Origin: Actinomyces sp. ph3
GTDB lineage: Bacteria > Actinomycetota > Actinomycetes > Actinomycetales > Actinomycetaceae
Reading direction: 5' to 3'
Assembly: GCF_000308055.1 (NCBI RefSeq)
Contig: NZ_CAGY01000001.1
Span: 186,001-250,000 of the forward strand
Length of the DNA: 64,000 bases
In this document: positions 8,912 to 17,514 of the stretch, piece after piece
Numbering within the stretch: position 1 is the stretch's first letter
Layout of the letters: each line of letters opens with the position of its first letter
Notes under the pieces: generated by a model
What the model was told of the DNA's origin: nothing
Database searches by the model: none
Seen by the model: only the letters and a program-made list of their open reading frames with translations
Position numbers and translations under genes: made by a program

Positions 8912-11900
8912 CTAGCGAAAATCGCGTGAGCGCACGCATAGCTCCGTATTCATCGGATAGATACGGAAGGCGCGTACGCTTCGTGTCCCATACAGGTTTT
9001 CACAGTAGCCGTCGACAATAACCGCCGGAGCCATCACCTCTTGGCGAAATTGTCGCCACGTGTTTTCAGTGACCGTAACGTTCACGCTTCCGGTTTCATC
9101 TTCTACGCTCAGGAAAAGGACTCCTCCGCCACTACTGGGACGCTGACGATGGGTAATAATTCCTCCTACTCTGATGCGAGCACGGTTCTCACACGCGGTA
9201 ACCCGACAGGCAGGCGTCACCCCCTGAGTATTCATCTCGGGGCGAAGAAGCTCAAGAGGATGCTGTTTTGGCGACATCCCCATGGACTCATAGTCCAGAT
9301 TGATACGGGCAAAATCATCCAAAGACGGAAGCTCGGGAAGATGGTATTCCAAGCCAAAACCATCGAGCATTGGTTGATATTCCTCAGAATCTCCTCCGTC
9401 TTGTCCCAAGCTACCGCTTGCCCAGATTCCTTCGCGTCGCTCATATCCCAAAGAATCTAGGGCTCCCGCTTGGGCGATCTTTTCCAGATCAACGCTGCGG
9501 AGCCTAGCTCTAGATGCCAGCTGTTCGAAACTTGCATACAAGCCATCCTGGCGTTCGCGTACAATCCTCTGGATACGAGACCGATCAAGCCCTTTAATAG
9601 CATCAAGCCCTATCACGATCCCCCACTGCGCATGAGAATCAACCAATCCCTCTTTTCCGGGGACTACCTCTCCACGCGCCTCGGCAAGCGCCTGCGCACC
9701 AATGACACGCTCAATTTCATTGACGGGGAGAACCCGGGTTTTCTCAGCCGAAAGGTTAACGTCAGGCGGGCACACAAGCAGGCCATGGCCTCGTGCATCA
9801 TGAATGAGTGAGGAAGGCGAATAAAAGCCCATCGGTTGATGAGACAAAATCCCCGCATAGAAATGCTCGGGGTAGTGAACCTTCAGCCAGGCCGATGCGT
9901 ACACGATGTAGGCAAAAGAAAAGGCATGCGATTCGGGAAAACCAAAATCGGCAAATCCTTGAACCTGAGTAAAAATTTCCTCGCAGACATTTTGAGGAAT
10001 ACCGCGCTGCTGCAGACCCTTCATGAAAGGCTCACGAAGCTTCTGCATTTTTTGGATACTGCGCGAAGAACCCATGGCACGCCTGAGCTCATCCGCCTGC
10101 GTAGCGCTAAAGCCTGCAACATCCATAGCAATATGCATCATCTGTTCTTGGAACAGGGGAACTCCCAAGGTCTTTTCCAAAGCAGGACGAAGAAGTGGAT
10201 GCAGATAGCTCACTTTCTCTTCCCCCCGGCGACGACGCAGGTAGGGATGGACGGCCTCTCCTTGAATCGGCCCCGGACGCACCAAAGCAACCTCAATGAC
10301 AATGTCATAAAAACACCGAGGGCGAAGCCGGGGAAGCACATTCATCTGTGCCCGTGATTCCACTTGGAAAACCCCTACTGTATCGGCGGCACACAGGAGG
10401 TCATACACTCGAGGATCTTCATCTTCGAGCTCGTATAAAGAAAGAACTTTCCCCCGAGAATTTCTCACGCCCGATTCTTGAAGAGAATCAAAGATTCCTC
10501 CGAGAGCCCCCAACATCCCCAGACCTAAAAGATCAAACTTCACCAGTCCGGCATCAGCGCAATCTTCTTTATCCCACTGAATAACGCTGCGCCCGCTTGT
10601 TCGAGCCCAACGGATTGGACACACCTCGCTCACAGGTTGCTTCGTCAAAATCATGCCCCCCGAATGAATGCCCATATGACGCGGAAGACCGCTCAGAAGC
10701 TGCGCACAGGTTCCAAGCATCTCTTGTGAAGCAGGCGAGTCACTGCTTTGGGAGCGCTCACGACGCTGAGCGCGAGTAGGCACGCTATCAGACGCAATCC
10801 CCAAAGCTCGAGCGGCATCCTTGTAGGCCAGTTGCGAACGATAGGTAATCACGGTCGCGACCTGCGCGGCACGTCTTCGCCCATAGCGGCGATACACATA
10901 TTGAATGACTTCTTCACGACGTGCGCTATCAATGTCAATATCGATATCGGGAGCCCCCGATCGCCCCGGAGAAAGGAATCGTTCGAAAAGCATATGATGC
11001 ATGATCGCATCAACAGCGGTGATACCCAAGCAGTAGCAGACAGCAGAATTTGCAGCTGATCCCCTACCCTGACACATGATCCCAGAGCAACGACAAAAAT
11101 CGACGATGTCATGAACAATCAGGAAATAGCCCGCAAAATCTAGTTTTTCGATAATTGCCAGCTCATGATCGATAACCTGCCACGCCTGCGGATGAGCGCT
11201 GCGCTCACCGTAAATTTCCACTGCCCGAGAATAGGTGAGCTCCCTAAGCCAAGAAATCGTTGTATGCCCCGGAGGAACTTCCGTATCAGGAAGATCCAAA
11301 GAATCGAAAGATAAGGGGTAATAACACTCATTTGCGCATTCGAAGGCATTGTTCACTGCCTGAGGTGCACTACGATGCAGAGCCAGCATTTCTTCGGCAC
11401 TTCGCAGGAAGGCGTACTGTGCGGGAATTCGATACTGAAGATCATCAAGACTGCGCCCCTGCCTCAATGAGCACAAAAGATCTGCTCGATATTTCGATTG
11501 CGGATAGGCCATGACAGGAGCAGCACTTGCGACAAGAGTCAGGCAATTAGCTTGCGCAAGTTCAGCAAGCTCGCGGCCAAGATCGTCTTGTCCAGGCATC
11601 AACACACTCTCAAGAAGAATACGTTCACGCCCAAATAGAGCGATGAGATCCTTAAGGAAACGATCGGCCTGCGTATGCCCCTGCGCATGCAAAATCCGTC
11701 GCAGAGGCCCCCTGCTTCCTCCCGTCAAAATACGTATATCCCCCATCTGAGCAATATTGCCGAGGCCGTGGGCCGGGCTTTCCTGGGCATCGTGCGTCAG
11801 CGTGTACTCGCTCATAAGATGACACAGATCCCGATATCCCTGCGCCGAGGTCGTAAGGATAGGAAGGCGAATTCCACGATCTTCCCACCCCTTGGGTAAA

Positions 11901-12172
11901 CCCCATCCCTGAGCGACTTCTTTTGATGAGCTATATCGGGAGAATTGCCCCGCATCTAGAGTCAATTCACTGCCAATAAGAAGGGGAAAAGAAGATTCTT
12001 TTGCTGCCTGTAAAGCCCGAATAAGGGAATACATTCCATCTACTTCCAGCAGAGCAAGAGCACTAAGATCCAGATTTTGCGCCGAAGAAACATAGTCCTC
12101 TGGCGCATCTGCCCCTTCAAGAAAAGTGAAGTACGAATGCGCGTGTAGCTCAGCGAAGTGATGGGATCCCAC
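8912..12172 (-). CDS. dnaE2: Error-prone DNA polymerase III alpha subunit DnaE2
   Basis: A 1086-residue C-family polymerase, the catalytic subunit of the ImuA/ImuB/DnaE2 mutasome that bypasses lesions during the SOS response. It has an N-terminal PHP domain beginning ELHAHSYFTFLEGAD, the catalytic aspartates in PDIDIDID near residue 410, RGSAANSAV before them, a helix-hairpin-helix/clamp region, and a C-terminal OB fold with GGIITHRQR and VEDETGSVNVTV. The GTG at 12172 is the first possible start in frame (TGA upstream at 12218-12220). It lies 13 bases from a perfect LexA-type palindrome and has no Shine-Dalgarno sequence, so a leaderless or nearly leaderless transcript is likely. It sits downstream of imuA-imuB-helicase on the same strand. 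Confidence 0.95.
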   Translation of the reverse strand: MGSHHFAELHAHSYFTFLEGADAPEDYVSSAQNLDLSALALLEVDGMYSLIRALQAAKESSFPLLIGSELTLDAGQFSRYSSSKEVAQGWGLPKGWEDRGIRLPILTTSAQGYRDLCHLMSEYTLTHDAQESPAHGLGNIAQMGDIRILTGGSRGPLRRILHAQGHTQADRFLKDLIALFGRERILLESVLMPGQDDLGRELAELAQANCLTLVASAAPVMAYPQSKYRADLLCSLRQGRSLDDLQYRIPAQYAFLRSAEEMLALHRSAPQAVNNAFECANECYYPLSFDSLDLPDTEVPPGHTTISWLRELTYSRAVEIYGERSAHPQAWQVIDHELAIIEKLDFAGYFLIVHDIVDFCRCSGIMCQGRGSAANSAVCYCLGITAVDAIMHHMLFERFLSPGRSGAPDIDIDIDSARREEVIQYVYRRYGRRRAAQVATVITYRSQLAYKDAARALGIASDSVPTRAQRRERSQSSDSPASQEMLGTCAQLLSGLPRHMGIHSGGMILTKQPVSEVCPIRWARTSGRSVIQWDKEDCADAGLVKFDLLGLGMLGALGGIFDSLQESGVRNSRGKVLSLYELEDEDPRVYDLLCAADTVGVFQVESRAQMNVLPRLRPRCFYDIVIEVALVRPGPIQGEAVHPYLRRRRGEEKVSYLHPLLRPALEKTLGVPLFQEQMMHIAMDVAGFSATQADELRRAMGSSRSIQKMQKLREPFMKGLQQRGIPQNVCEEIFTQVQGFADFGFPESHAFSFAYIVYASAWLKVHYPEHFYAGILSHQPMGFYSPSSLIHDARGHGLLVCPPDVNLSAEKTRVLPVNEIERVIGAQALAEARGEVVPGKEGLVDSHAQWGIVIGLDAIKGLDRSRIQRIVRERQDGLYASFEQLASRARLRSVDLEKIAQAGALDSLGYERREGIWASGSLGQDGGDSEEYQPMLDGFGLEYHLPELPSLDDFARINLDYESMGMSPKQHPLELLRPEMNTQGVTPACRVTACENRARIRVGGIITHRQRPSSGGGVLFLSVEDETGSVNVTVTENTWRQFRQEVMAPAVIVDGYCENLYGTRSVRAFRIYPMNTELCVRSRDFR

Positions 12173-12181
12173 CCAATCAGC

Positions 12182-12203
12182 ATATCGAACATATGTTCGA
12201 TAT
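12182..12203. promoter_or_regulatory. LexA-type SOS box upstream of dnaE2
   Basis: The core CGAACATATGTTCG (12186-12199) matches the actinobacterial LexA consensus CGAAC-N4-GTTCG exactly. The palindrome extends perfectly for four more bases on each side (ATAT flanks), 22 bases in all. It ends ten bases before the dnaE2 start codon, so bound LexA would cover the promoter or transcription start. No other gene is close enough to be the target. LexA itself is not in the window. Confidence 0.9.
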
Positions 12204-12233
12204 GCAGTGAATTTACCTCAAGAAAAGATCGAG

Positions 12234-15200
12234 CTAAACGCGCCCATCCCGCTCTTCTTGGATGAGCTTAAGTAGCTGCTGAATATCAGTGGAACTACGC
12301 CCTTCTCCTAAGTTTTGCCCCACAACACTGTCAACAAGCAGCTGTTTGTGGGCCTGAAGCTGACACACCTTTTCTTCAATAGTGTCTTGAGCAACCAAGC
12401 GATAGACATTTACCCTACGATCCTGACCAATACGGTGCGCACGATTCACCGCCTGCGCCTCAACTGAAGGATTCCACCACGGGTCCATCATGTAGACATA
12501 ATCCGCCTGAGTCAGGGTAAGCCCCACTCCCCCAGCCTTGAGGGAAATTAAGAACACCTGCACGTCTCCATGCTGGAATTCATCGATCACTGCATGACGG
12601 TTACGCGTTTTCCCTTCAAGAAGAAGGGAGACAATCCCACGTTGATCCAAGGAACGACGAATCCGCTCCAAGAAAGCAACAAATTGACTGAAAACCAAGA
12701 CTTTATGCCCCAGCGGGAGAATCTGCTCCAAGTGCTCGCATAGCAGATCAATCTTTGCCGAGCCGACAGAGTCATACCGCTGATCAACCAGGGCAGGATC
12801 CAAAGATAATTGACGAAGGCGCGTAAGTGCAGCCAAAACCTCAAATCGTTCACGAGTGTCATTTTCGAGCTCAAGATGAAGAAGGCGTGCGCGCTCGCGG
12901 GTCAAATAGCGGTCATAAATTTGTCGCTGTTTGCGCCCCAGCGGCACAGGAAGAAGAGTTTCAACACGCTCAGGCAGTTCGGGCGCGACCTCTTCCTTCG
13001 TTCGCCGGAGAACAAACGGAGCAATCAGTGAGTGTAGAAGATTGAGAAGATCAGGCGAACGTCCTGCTTCAATCGGACGCCGGAATTTCTCATTGAAAGA
13101 AGAATGACTTGAGAGGAGTCCCGGGACTGCTAAAGACATGAGTGACCAGAGATCTTCAAGAGAGTTTTCAATTGGAGTTCCACTGATGCACACACGCCAG
13201 GCAACAGGTAGATCTTTCAGGTATCGATACAGTTGCGTGCGAGGGTTTTTGGCGGCTTGAGCTTCGTCGATGACGACGCCCGCTAATTCTCTATTTTTCC
13301 AATGCTCACAGTCGATACGAAAGAGCGTATGCGAGGTGACAACAACATCCGCACGATCCAAGCCATTCCATCCCTGTGGGTCACGCGCATAGGTTGATTG
13401 AATGAGACAGAGCGCCATTTCCGGGAAGCAACTTTCAGCTTCATCCCGCCAGCTCGACATGACACTGGTGGGGACGACAACCAGAACGGGATGGCTGGTA
13501 TGACGTCGAAACTTTTCAATTGCCCCCAGGATCTGCCTGGTCTTTCCAAGTCCCATATCATCGGCAAGGACACAACCGAAACCTGCCCGAATTCTATTGA
13601 GAACCCAATGCATGCCCATCGCCTGATAAGGACGCATTCCTGGCTCATCCTCGATGGGCGCTTTTATTTCTTCCTTGGCCAAGTCTCTGAGACCGTCAAT
13701 GCGTGTTCGCCATTGCCGATCCGCTTCACGCGTATCGACGAACTCACTCAGGTTTTCCCAGAGTCCAAATTGGGAGGTTGTCAGCGAAATATTATCGAGA
13801 GAACGCGATCGGTGAAGTTGCGCCGCCTGCCGGAGAAGTAGGCGTAAGCGATCGATATCGACGCCCTCAAGATGGAGCCAACGACCATTATCGAGGCGAA
13901 TATAGTCCCGGTCCTCAGAGAGCGCACTGAGGACGCGAGAGATCGGTAGTTCTTCATCTCCGACGCGAACAGTAACGCGCAAATTCCACCAGTCCGGAGA
14001 ATCCGTTGCCTGAATCTGTGCGTTAATCTGCAGCTTCTCGTCAACGATGCGAGTCTCTTCAAGATGCTGATCAATATCCCAGGTCACCGAATCCAGCGGC
14101 CAGCTATTTTTTAATGCACGAAGCAGCTCGGGGACTTGCGGAAGCGGGATGAGCAGTTCGTGAAGGGTTGGCGCCAGCGAGGCCGCAGGAAAGTAAGCGC
14201 GTAATGCTGCGTGGGCAGCATCAAAGTCACGAGCAAGAGAATCGCTCAGATGACTAATTTTTGTCTGCGGAGGCAAATAAGAGCGGAACCGCTTCTTTTC
14301 TAAGCTGTAATCCACCGCCCAGCATACATAGGCAAACTGCGAATTCCGCTCTCGCAGGCACAGTCGCAACTGTGGCAGGAGTTCATCAAAGGGGAAAGTC
14401 CTCATCGAGGATATACATCGGTAGTGTGCACGAAGTGCGGCAAGTTCATTCCTGATGAAATCTCCAATTGCAGACATTGGAATGCGAACACAAACCTCAT
14501 TGAGGGGGGCCAGCTCTTGTTGATCGATGGGATCTGCAACTGCACCTTCTCCTCCATTAATGAAGGTCAGTCCCATCTCATCAGCACGTCGCGGAAAAGG
14601 CAGCGTTGTACCAGTCCGGTCAATTTGTTCGTCTTTATAGCAGACTTCAAGTCCTTTTCTGCTTAGGTTCATATCAATCGCAGCAGCAAAAGAATTCATC
14701 TGAAAGTCGAATCGATGGAGTTGTGGTGTCAGAAGCACAACCCCCGATTTTTGAAGCTCATAGAGCCAGATGGGTGCGCTGCGACCCAGTGATTCCAGCG
14801 AGACGTCATAGCTGCCAGGAGAATATTCACTCGATTTTCTACTGCTTTGGTAGAGACGTCGCAAGCTTGTGAGGTGATGCGGCGAAAGCGTATCTAAGAG
14901 ACCACTCCAGTGAGACTGTGCAAGTTCAGACCAACTGAGACGACGAGCTTCTTGATTGCGCACAAGGACCAACGGAGTCAGCCATACCGGTTGAGCAGGA
15001 TCGTGAGCGTCAACAATAAGCCCCATAGCTTGAGCGCCATCTGTGGATAACAAGCTTTCAAACTCGCCCATCCACACCACGCCTGCCGGATTTTGAGTTG
15101 CAGGATCTTCGCCGCATTCACGCCGAGCACGTCGAAGCAAGGCCGCTGCATGGACACAAGCACCTGAAAGATAACAAGAGCACGTCAAATGAAGATGCGT

Positions 15201-15431
15201 CTTTGAGGAATCTACGTAACGAATGACGCTTCGGTACATGACGCCCGGTGCGCGGACGCGGGCCGAAGCCTCGGTATCGCTCCAAGCTATTTCCTGAACA
15301 TCACCGCGCCCATCTGCAAGAGCCGCCTGCGCCCATAAGGCGTGCCCAAGAAGTGCAACTGCATCTTCTTCACTGCAGGCGCGAAGAGCTTGACGAATCG
15401 GTGACGTACCCATCCCTTCAGGATAATCCAT
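12234..15431 (-). CDS. SNF2-family DEAD/DEAH helicase with SWIM zinc finger
   Basis: A 1065-residue SWI2/SNF2 ATPase. A SWIM motif lies near residues 80-100 (TCSCYLSGACVHAA: C-x-C then C-x-H). A long middle region of unknown fold follows. The two RecA-like lobes carry Walker A DDMGLGKT near 625, box II DEAQ near 721, ISGTPIENSLEDLWS, and motifs V/VI in GGVGLTLTQA and AVNRAHRIGQ near 1000. Such enzymes translocate on dsDNA and remodel protein-DNA complexes. The gene starts eight bases after imuB stops, with no good Shine-Dalgarno of its own, so it is probably coupled to imuB and SOS-induced with it. It is not a recognised mutasome part. The start could also be the in-frame ATG at 15413. Confidence 0.9.
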   Translation of the reverse strand: MDYPEGMGTSPIRQALRACSEEDAVALLGHALWAQAALADGRGDVQEIAWSDTEASARVRAPGVMYRSVIRYVDSSKTHLHLTCSCYLSGACVHAAALLRRARRECGEDPATQNPAGVVWMGEFESLLSTDGAQAMGLIVDAHDPAQPVWLTPLVLVRNQEARRLSWSELAQSHWSGLLDTLSPHHLTSLRRLYQSSRKSSEYSPGSYDVSLESLGRSAPIWLYELQKSGVVLLTPQLHRFDFQMNSFAAAIDMNLSRKGLEVCYKDEQIDRTGTTLPFPRRADEMGLTFINGGEGAVADPIDQQELAPLNEVCVRIPMSAIGDFIRNELAALRAHYRCISSMRTFPFDELLPQLRLCLRERNSQFAYVCWAVDYSLEKKRFRSYLPPQTKISHLSDSLARDFDAAHAALRAYFPAASLAPTLHELLIPLPQVPELLRALKNSWPLDSVTWDIDQHLEETRIVDEKLQINAQIQATDSPDWWNLRVTVRVGDEELPISRVLSALSEDRDYIRLDNGRWLHLEGVDIDRLRLLLRQAAQLHRSRSLDNISLTTSQFGLWENLSEFVDTREADRQWRTRIDGLRDLAKEEIKAPIEDEPGMRPYQAMGMHWVLNRIRAGFGCVLADDMGLGKTRQILGAIEKFRRHTSHPVLVVVPTSVMSSWRDEAESCFPEMALCLIQSTYARDPQGWNGLDRADVVVTSHTLFRIDCEHWKNRELAGVVIDEAQAAKNPRTQLYRYLKDLPVAWRVCISGTPIENSLEDLWSLMSLAVPGLLSSHSSFNEKFRRPIEAGRSPDLLNLLHSLIAPFVLRRTKEEVAPELPERVETLLPVPLGRKQRQIYDRYLTRERARLLHLELENDTRERFEVLAALTRLRQLSLDPALVDQRYDSVGSAKIDLLCEHLEQILPLGHKVLVFSQFVAFLERIRRSLDQRGIVSLLLEGKTRNRHAVIDEFQHGDVQVFLISLKAGGVGLTLTQADYVYMMDPWWNPSVEAQAVNRAHRIGQDRRVNVYRLVAQDTIEEKVCQLQAHKQLLVDSVVGQNLGEGRSSTDIQQLLKLIQEERDGRV

Positions 15432-15439
15432 CTGAATGA

Positions 15440-17014
15440 TTAGCCTTGACGATCTTCATACATTCCAGCAACGCTCCAAGAGCCTTGTTCCCACATCAGC
15501 AGAAGATCCGAGGAATTTTCACAACTCACTCTGAGGTAGTGCGTACAGGGGGCATGGGCAATAGCCTCGGCCGTCTCTTGCCACCACGAGTGCGGCATAC
15601 TCCATGGACCTTTCCAGGAAAGCACCCCGTATCGGTGTTGCCGCCCCGAAATTACTGCAACAATTTCTTTGGGATTATGCGTGAGCGTAGAACGATCACT
15701 AACTGCCACTTGCACATGCTCTTGCAAAGAAGACTGAGCGTAAAGAAAAGCCGGAAGAGGCGTGGGGTACACCTTCGAGGGAGCCTCTTCCACTGCGCCT
15801 TCAGGATAAAGGAGATCACCGGAGCTCGTCACCCTTTGATCAATACAGGTAAATCCTGCTCTTTGCATGGGGGTATACCCCGGAATTAGACATGGAACAC
15901 GAACAGCATCTTCGCCTTTATAAGCGCAAATTTTACGAAGGGCCGAATCGCGTTTTGGTGAGCGATGTGTTCTCCATAGAGTGCTCACTCCTGCTGAAGG
16001 GATGCAATGCAAGGCTTGAACGCTGATGCGAATCAGCCCCTCCTCGGTAGTGGAAGTAGAAAGCCAAGCTACAAGCTGCCAGCGAATACGATCTGCAATT
16101 TCTTCTTCATCCCCATCGATTCCCCACCATTGTCTTTCGTAAGTTTCATAGCTCTGATCGTGCGCAGTGATCACGATACTCGAGCAACGCAGCTGCTCTC
16201 TTTCAAGCTTTTCGCAGATTTGACGCGCTAAACGGCGCGAACAGAAAGCAGCCTGTTCTTCATTCTCAATACTTTCCTCACACTCCTCATCCACTTGCAC
16301 TTCACGTACAGGAATTTCATGTTTCGGAATCCAAAGATCTTTCCCGCTAAATAATTCGTAGAGCTGCTGACCGATATCCCCAAAACGTGTATACAGAGCA
16401 CGTTCTCCCATGCGCATCAAATCACGCCCATGCATCACTCCCACTGAGCGGCACGTATCAATGACCTGTTGGAGCTGTTCGTGCTGTTTTTGGGGAAATA
16501 ATGGAAGACACTGAGCAAGATCAATATGGTCAAGAAACTCTTGAGTCCGCTCTGGGGGCACAATAATTCCGCGCCTTGCCGCCGCATAACTTGCAAGGGG
16601 GCCGGACGCTATCCCCACATTGCTTTCTGATCCACTCCATCGAGAAATCGAATCAACAATATTTTCAGCCAGCTGTTCTTCACTGCCGCTCCACCGAGCC
16701 GCTCCAGCGGCAGGGGCCCATCCCAGCCCCGGACGCACACAGGCGATACCTGCAACCCATTGCTCGCAAGCTTGGACAATTACTTCGAAAGAGTTCAATT
16801 CTCTACGCGGATCACTTGGAACAATAAGGAGATCTGGACATAGGTAACGCGCCATCGACACGCGCATCCCCTGTCGCACACCGCATTTCCATGCAGAGGG
16901 AGTCACTGTCTTAAGAAATCCACGCTCTTCAATTGCTCCATGAGTCCCCGGAGGAATATCGACTACCAAAGCATTAATTTCCCAGTTGGGAATCCACACC
17001 ATGAGACAGCGCAT
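15440..17014 (-). CDS. imuB: ImuB-like Y-family DNA polymerase homologue (mutasome adaptor)
   Basis: A 524-residue protein of the ImuB type, which resembles a Y-family polymerase but acts as a scaffold linking DnaE2 to the beta clamp. It opens MRCLMVWIPNWEINALVVDI, with no DxD-type catalytic pair. It has the ImuB-typical VRPGLGWAPAAGAARW near residue 95, GIASGPLASYAAARRG near 140, and ADRIRWQLVAWL in the little-finger region. I see no clear QLxLF clamp-binding motif. The start at 17014 is one base after the imuA stop. An earlier in-frame start at 17071 would lie inside imuA and is rejected. Confidence 0.88.
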   Translation of the reverse strand: MRCLMVWIPNWEINALVVDIPPGTHGAIEERGFLKTVTPSAWKCGVRQGMRVSMARYLCPDLLIVPSDPRRELNSFEVIVQACEQWVAGIACVRPGLGWAPAAGAARWSGSEEQLAENIVDSISRWSGSESNVGIASGPLASYAAARRGIIVPPERTQEFLDHIDLAQCLPLFPQKQHEQLQQVIDTCRSVGVMHGRDLMRMGERALYTRFGDIGQQLYELFSGKDLWIPKHEIPVREVQVDEECEESIENEEQAAFCSRRLARQICEKLEREQLRCSSIVITAHDQSYETYERQWWGIDGDEEEIADRIRWQLVAWLSTSTTEEGLIRISVQALHCIPSAGVSTLWRTHRSPKRDSALRKICAYKGEDAVRVPCLIPGYTPMQRAGFTCIDQRVTSSGDLLYPEGAVEEAPSKVYPTPLPAFLYAQSSLQEHVQVAVSDRSTLTHNPKEIVAVISGRQHRYGVLSWKGPWSMPHSWWQETAEAIAHAPCTHYLRVSCENSSDLLLMWEQGSWSVAGMYEDRQG

Positions 17015-17015
17015 A

Positions 17016-17486
17016 TCATCCCGCCTTTTGATAAATATCAAAGTCTTCTCCCCACGGGCGACTGAAGCCAACCCATGGGTACTTAGTCAGCAAAATTGTT
17101 TCTTCTTTTCGCACCTGGGCACCCAAACGCCGCATATCACGAAGGGCTAATGAGCAACGGTCCACATAGACCAATCGACAATGCGGAAGAAGAAGTGAGA
17201 TTACCTGCGCATCCGCACAGGAGGAGGGAACGTAGAGGCAACGCGCCAGATTCAATCCCTGTTTAAAGGCATATTCCCAGCCAAAATCATCACTTCCAAT
17301 GAAAGCGCAGCAAGCCTCTTCGATGCCAAGAGAAAGAATGACACGAATCAATTGCGGGTAAGTCCCGCCGTATTCCCAGACCCCCACACAGCGCGATGAA
17401 AGATCTGAAAAAGCCTGACTTTTCTCAAGTCCCAGGCGATTTTCGGTATCACGTAGAACTTGACGAGCAAGGTCTAAACGCTTCAT
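17016..17486 (-). CDS. imuA: ImuA-like protein (short form without P-loop)
   Basis: A 156-residue protein in the position of imuA, first gene of the SOS operon. It resembles actinobacterial ImuA-prime: a strand then G-x-Y region near residue 40, the pattern CAFIGSDDFGWEYAFKQG near 60, and LARCLYVPS then LVYVD near 90-110. There is no GxxGxGK[ST] Walker A, so it cannot be a RecA-type ATPase; it is also shorter than the usual 200 residues or more. Its start follows AGGTGA, with a LexA-type box just upstream. The call rests more on position and pattern than on a strong motif. Confidence 0.72.
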   Translation of the reverse strand: MKRLDLARQVLRDTENRLGLEKSQAFSDLSSRCVGVWEYGGTYPQLIRVILSLGIEEACCAFIGSDDFGWEYAFKQGLNLARCLYVPSSCADAQVISLLLPHCRLVYVDRCSLALRDMRRLGAQVRKEETILLTKYPWVGFSRPWGEDFDIYQKAG

Positions 17487-17500
17487 AAAATCACCTCAAT

Positions 17501-17514
17501 CGAACAAGTGTTCT
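17501..17514. promoter_or_regulatory. LexA-type SOS box upstream of imuA
   Basis: CGAACAAGTGTTCT has one mismatch from CGAAC-N4-GTTCG (last base T for G). It lies 14 bases upstream of the imuA start codon, and the Shine-Dalgarno AGGTGA sits in the gap. It would control imuA-imuB-helicase as one unit. It lies between imuA and the divergent PEBP gene at 17579, and could affect both. Confidence 0.82.

Follow-up and report, generated by a model that had tools for sequence, protein, structure and literature searches.

A SWIM-SNF2 ATPase gene within the LexA-boxed imuA'-imuB-dnaE2 cassette of Actinomyces sp. ph3 and its relatives

What does an SNF2-type ATPase do when its gene stands among those of an error-prone DNA synthesis system? 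The question is raised by a stretch of 64,000 nucleotides from Actinomyces sp. ph3 (NCBI RefSeq assembly GCF_000308055.1, contig NZ_CAGY01000001.1, positions 186,001 to 250,000 of the forward strand), here called the window, whose minus strand carries, in this order, a LexA box, imuA', imuB, a gene for a SWIM-SNF2 ATPase (hereafter SNF2), a second LexA box and dnaE2. In known systems the mutasome consists of ImuA', ImuB and DnaE2 and uses the beta clamp. An earlier note on this DNA, made from its letters alone, had taken SNF2 for an SOS-induced partner of the mutasome. The observation behind it is confirmed, and is stronger than first noted, since the arrangement is conserved and SOS-boxed in four genera. 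With slightly better than even confidence, we explain the locus as an extended SOS cassette with a damage-co-induced SNF2 translocase that would aid damage tolerance both beside the mutasome and outside it.

The cassette in the window

The coordinates (Table 1) bear out the one-direction layout of the four genes that was first described, the tight packing of the first three, with one base (17015) between imuA' and imuB and eight bases (15432-15439) between imuB and SNF2, and the two LexA-type boxes, one at imuA' for these three genes and another at dnaE2. The longest open reading frame (ORF) of imuB begins with a TTG at 17071; we chose the ATG at 17014, which fits the neighbouring gene. Boxes with at most one mismatch number 5 in the window against 2.6 expected, and 10 of 100 shuffles reach 5; their number alone is thus not above chance, but their positions are conserved among loci. 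The source genome (1.86 Mb in 10 contigs) harbors a LexA gene (225 bits). Upstream of this match, at distances of 104 to 180 bases, are three boxes with one mismatch each; a limit of two mismatches gives 4 sites in the locus against 2.5 expected. Terminator-like sites in the region number 10, against 9.6 by chance, and the imuB-SNF2 interval of the window contains none. As SNF2 lacks a LexA box of its own, it is most likely transcribed from the imuA' promoter, and a predicted co-induction with the mutasome genes is supported by this layout.

Table 1. Coordinates of genes, LexA-type boxes and protein motifs of the cassette in the window
Feature	Positions	Strand	Remarks
LexA-type box AGAACACTTGTTCG	17501..17514	-	one mismatch; 14 bases before imuA'
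imuA'	17016..17486	-	156 aa; NF058630 39.8 bits (cut-off 65), and alignment
imuB	15440..17014	-	524 aa; inactive Y-family polymerase homologue; catalytic acids absent
ImuB Leu-Trp, residues 346-347	15974..15979	-	column of the mycobacterial clamp motif QLPLWG (available part of PMC10421592)
SWIM-SNF2 ATPase	12234..15431	-	1065 aa; probable double-stranded DNA translocase
SWIM zinc-finger ligands C84, C86, C92, H94	15150..15182	-	finger pattern in 44/44 SNF2 rows
Walker A motif DDMGLGKT, residues 624-631 of SNF2	13539..13562	-	pattern in 44/44 rows
DEAQ box, residues 722-725 of SNF2	13257..13268	-	pattern in 44/44 rows
LexA-type box CGAACATATGTTCG	12186..12199	-	perfect, palindrome; 13 bases before dnaE2
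dnaE2	8912..12172	-	1086 aa; error-prone C-family polymerase; GTG start; PRK05672 1177 bits (cut-off 939)

Conservation of the linkage and its limits

We considered the Actinomycetaceae in a wide sense, including Actinomyces gerencseriae (L124, whose ImuB place is that of G074) and a Georgenia relative (L015, L082), the latter because the SNF2 sequences are nearly identical. A first sample had imuB and SNF2 adjacent in 5 of 61 family genomes; the two genes lie on one strand within about 1.1 kb in at least 39 of 213 family genomes from four genera, 38 of these loci having been read directly and that of G180 judged from match coordinates. Among the matches listed, linked genomes make up at least 30 of 35 in the window's genus (g1), at least 6 of 11 in g23, at least 2 of 3 in g27 and at least 1 of 2 in g28; in a seventh g23 genome, G151, imuB is broken. 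The exceptions in the window's genus are G178 and G195, with 4.8 kb and about 13 kb between imuB and SNF2, G194, where the contig ends, and G192 and G193, which show no imu genes at the SNF2 locus. In view of this conservation in four genera we reject chance adjacency of imuB and SNF2.

The regulatory elements are conserved along with the genes. By script, 39 of 40 loci have a LexA box with at most one mismatch at imuA', and 36 of 40 have one at dnaE2, whereas elsewhere such boxes occur at a background rate of 0.073 per kb; a box of SNF2's own occurs in 1 of 44 loci. Three of the loci missed at dnaE2 (L146, L147 and L150) do have a box just upstream of the gene, beyond the range of the script, and the one missed at imuA' (L175) has it inside an overlong ORF. 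At this threshold G195 (L149, L185) has neither box. The ATPase motifs of SNF2 are intact, and purifying selection on the gene is indicated by ratios of nonsynonymous to synonymous substitution rates (dN/dS) between 0.08 and 0.22 in the seven pairs, out of eight, that gave a value; for ImuB the ratio is 0.10-0.49 in seven of eight pairs.

Such a conserved place inside the cassette, under shared LexA control, would also be expected if SNF2 were a true fourth mutasome component, one that contacts ImuB or DnaE2 and on which damage-induced mutagenesis depends, for instance because it removes RecA or RNA polymerase from the path of DnaE2. Two further findings favour this alternative: SNF2 is present in all 35 genomes of the window's genus, and SNF2 distances track those of ImuB (Mantel r 0.97 over 32 loci, in a comparison that includes no unlinked control gene). 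In a quick tree with several long branches, a clade of 45 rows (Shimodaira-Hasegawa-like approximate likelihood ratio test 99) stands apart from other actinobacterial SWIM-SNF2 proteins; it comprises 37 rows labelled as linked (among them G195, with imuB distant, and G194, with imuB unseen), two imu-less rows and 6 unlinked rows of the family. The tree used 90 of 107 SNF2 rows, the remainder being duplicates, fragments, near-copies or split genes.

An obligate mutasome subunit, on the other hand, should not persist where the mutasome is missing, and three genomes (G192, G193 and G049) that have neither dnaE2 nor a full-strength imuB yet keep a full-length SNF2, which argues against such a role. 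Only dnaE1-like matches were found in G192 and G193. The best match to the ImuB profile is 2.5e-33 in G192, possibly a DinB or a remnant, the E-values of full imuB genes in g1 being far lower; it is 1.5e-26 in G049, and G193 has none at 1e-20 (1.2e-18 in another search). No box with up to two mismatches was found in the 400 bp upstream of SNF2 in G192 and G193, nor any box upstream of tdk-SNF2 in G049, where these two genes (L059, 4389-9040) stand beside PEBP, TrmL and lpdA-like genes, neighbours as in the window. In the tree, G192 and G193 are each paired with a linked row (support 100 and 90), so that the two losses look separate, and G049 stands apart. The retention of SNF2 in these genomes suggests a role outside the mutasome as well.

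The reverse case occurs too, as G057 (g28), G023, G154 and G053 (g23) have a strong imuB and no SNF2 match at 1e-100, and their genera also contain linked members; completeness is 80% for G057 and 89% for G154. In the cassette of G057 (L204), imuB and dnaE2 still have a LexA box between them, which may be left over from a lost insert. Four genomes of g20 match SNF2 and show no match to ImuB at 1e-20. Among 178 genomes sampled across the order, 52 in addition to the window's own have both genes (ImuB at E up to 1e-60 and SNF2 at E up to 1e-150), and none of these shows the two adjacent by coordinates; counting the window's, both genes lie on one contig in 22 genomes and on different contigs in 31. 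Two of these 31, G252 and G331, have one of the genes at the start of a contig, so that adjacency is not strictly excluded there. Around related SNF2 genes, no imuA', imuB or dnaE2 was found in 79 loci (L061-L139), some with short flanks, the 424-aa match of 82 bits in L099 being DinB-like. One of these loci, L073, comes from a record titled Vibrio cholerae; its SNF2 fragment is actinobacterial-like and may stem from assembly contamination. Conversely, 20 further imuB loci and L058 contain no SNF2. Surveyed for co-occurrence with imuB, as the earlier note had proposed, SNF2 is thus linked within the family and absent from imuB loci sampled elsewhere. We regard the extended imuA'-imuB-SNF2-dnaE2 cassette as lineage-specific, being found in one branch of the Actinomycetaceae, and a fourth mutasome component as rather unlikely. 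The partner proposed earlier accordingly stands as a conserved, SOS-boxed cassette member that shares the imuA' box in four genera and keeps its motifs; its part as a mutasome subunit is not established, with three genomes keeping SNF2 and no dnaE2, and relatives carrying the cassette and no SNF2.

The proteins and the imuB-dnaE2 junction

In the SNF2 protein, the Pfam domains SNF2-rel_dom and Helicase_C score above their cut-offs and SNF2_assoc below; Pfam reported no SWIM match, and the finger CxC...CxH of the SWIM-SNF2 subfamily is present. Motifs I, II and III and the SWIM finger occur in 44 of 44 rows, motif IV in 40, and motifs V and VI in 43. When the alignment profile was compared with solved structures, the first match was a Sulfolobus SNF2/Rad54 ATPase bound to double-stranded DNA (dsDNA). 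The AlphaFold model has a mean predicted local distance difference test (pLDDT) score of 73.7, its core being well predicted, and by fold (Foldseek, with VIA-align merely re-ranking the matches, which span the ATPase core) this core resembles Mot1, CSB/ERCC6, INO80 and SRCAP. These proteins and the Sulfolobus SNF2 either translocate on dsDNA or strip proteins from it, and the likeness of the modelled core favours protein clearing or remodelling over strand opening as the probable activity. The name helicase given to SNF2 at first is loose, its nearest solved relative by sequence being the dsDNA-bound SNF2/Rad54 ATPase. We found no recognisable clamp motif in the window's SNF2, which also speaks against a fourth component; the consensus patterns match 1 to 3 of 44 rows, and are so strict that they also miss ImuB in 39 of 39.

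The ATPase part also matches the PADLOC models DpdE and ZorD (488 and 305 bits), as would a piece of an anti-phage system of either type. Among the 25 matches listed, the best stretches start at residue 432 or later and leave the N-terminal part uncovered; the nearby Tgt is an ordinary Q_tRNA_tgt, and six further neighbouring proteins have no PADLOC match. With core-only matches and no partner Dpd genes among the neighbours scanned, we rejected this reading as very improbable.

The mutasome proteins were assigned on several grounds. DnaE2 lies above the cut-off of its model. ImuB is a Y-family member by domain search, and in the alignment it has WIP and RPGL where the DinB of this genome has DMD and SVDE. 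ImuA' falls below the cut-off of the Rv3395c model, and its probable identity finds support in gene position and alignment. At the clamp-motif column, ImuB has LW and lacks Gln and Gly, the window's protein reading VSTLWR. The mycobacterial Gln is mostly missing in the Actinomycetaceae, and the LW part stays. Gln occurs in 2 of 40 SNF2-linked rows versus 14 of 50 unlinked rows, and as these rows are related and partly repeats of the same genomes, we make no claim that its loss is a hallmark of SNF2 linkage.

The imuB-dnaE2 junction takes up other genes as well. Among 45 loci from 44 genomes, tdk stands directly upstream of SNF2 in 14 (L148, L150-L158, L164 and L182-L184; in L164 the contig ends before imuB), the name thymidine kinase coming from Pfam for two copies. 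It also occurs where SNF2 does not (L058, L188-L190 and L196), lying between imuB and dnaE2 in G015, G202 and G203 (g15) and G043 (g10); in G204, tdk and a box follow imuB before the contig ends. Of 21 imuB loci, 13 have dnaE2 directly after imuB and three are arranged otherwise. In general, tdk lies behind imuB in many relatives, and dnaE2 there is often behind its own LexA box. A tdk query gave no match in the window's genome, in a search that included no positive control genome. In G195 (L149, 8193-19500), a CRISPR-like repeat array, a Cas4-Cas1 fusion, a Cas3-like gene and others separate SNF2 from imuB.

A junction that holds tdk and, in G195, a CRISPR-Cas block raises the alternative that SNF2 is one more gene carried along there, doing housekeeping work such as RNA polymerase recycling with its SOS induction incidental; the persistence of SNF2 where dnaE2 or the LexA box is missing fits this as well. 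Hitch-hiking of this kind is less easily reconciled with a gene order maintained across four genera, with distances that show no sign of reshuffling, and with dnaE2 mostly having its own box where inserts occur, which places SNF2 and tdk between two SOS elements. We therefore consider it unlikely, though it deserves some weight.

Several points weigh against the damage-co-induced translocase that we favour. The lack of a LexA box in the imu-less genomes indicates that damage induction is not essential to the function for which SNF2 is retained there. The long SNF2 branches leave room for drift. The fold match is limited to the ATPase core, which is common to the whole SNF2 superfamily and silent on the target, and residues 1-575 are modelled with low confidence (pLDDT 69.4) and match nothing in the PDB at an E-value of 0.001 or better.

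Known systems and the meaning of the cassette

The closest known system is the mycobacterial imuA'-imuB and dnaE2 mutasome (available part of PMC10421592), with which the locus shares a probable ImuA', an inactive ImuB, DnaE2, LexA-type boxes and LW at the clamp-motif column, but from which it differs in the SNF2 gene within the cassette and in the rarity of the motif Gln in linked ImuB proteins. Other actinobacterial SWIM-SNF2 proteins likewise combine a SWIM finger with an SNF2 core, and a relative from a Mycobacterium metagenome-assembled genome (L061) aligns nearly over the full length, but the sampled genes do not stand beside imu genes. HelZ (Rv2101), a zinc-finger Snf2/Rad54 helicase according to the available part of PMC2587704, is likened to SNF2 by description only. 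The best NCBIfam match, the SCO1167/SCO6262 family helicase (NF058637), scores 380 bits for residues 480-1039, falling far short of its cut-off of 1200, and SNF2 is thus not assigned to that family. Bacillus YqhH, also of SNF2 type and compared by description rather than alignment, is smaller and is not known to have a SWIM domain. Its deletion lowers ultraviolet survival at 30 min, not at 60, according to the available part of PMC10054049.

The open-access literature yielded no description of the imuB-SNF2 arrangement or of SNF2 as a mutasome part, as the earlier note had likewise known none, nor of an SOS-linked tdk with imuB. A 2026 survey of DnaE2 systems mentions no partner of SNF2 type, and the word 'helicase' does not occur in its main text as far as available (PMC12926913). 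As far as found, imuA'-imuB-SNF2-dnaE2 is a previously undescribed version of the imuA'-imuB-dnaE2 cassette.

Under the favoured explanation, a SWIM-SNF2 gene, whose kind also occurs elsewhere in actinobacteria, lies between imuB and dnaE2, where it would be read through from the imuA' promoter and be damage-induced together with ImuA', ImuB and DnaE2. The protein would move on double-stranded DNA with ATP and displace or remodel bound proteins at damaged sites, the candidate targets being stalled RNA polymerase, RecA, nucleoid proteins and parts of stalled replisomes. Such action may aid damage tolerance beside the mutasome and also outside it, so that SNF2 would be a damage-co-induced dsDNA translocase next to the mutasome with a mutasome-independent job too. 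More tentatively, and as a possibility that we hold to be doubtful, the mutasome of this branch may have grown into a larger SOS translesion module that includes a chromatin-remodeller-like SNF2 motor and, in many members, a thymidine supply through thymidine kinase, and in which protein clearance, precursor supply and error-prone synthesis would be induced as a unit.

We know of no account of how translesion polymerases gain access to damaged DNA that is densely occupied by RNA polymerase, RecA and nucleoid proteins. A conserved SOS unit in which an SNF2 motor is joined to the mutasome, often together with tdk, would allow a direct test of polymerase access, and the natural genomes with only one half, SNF2 or the mutasome, would serve as built-in controls.

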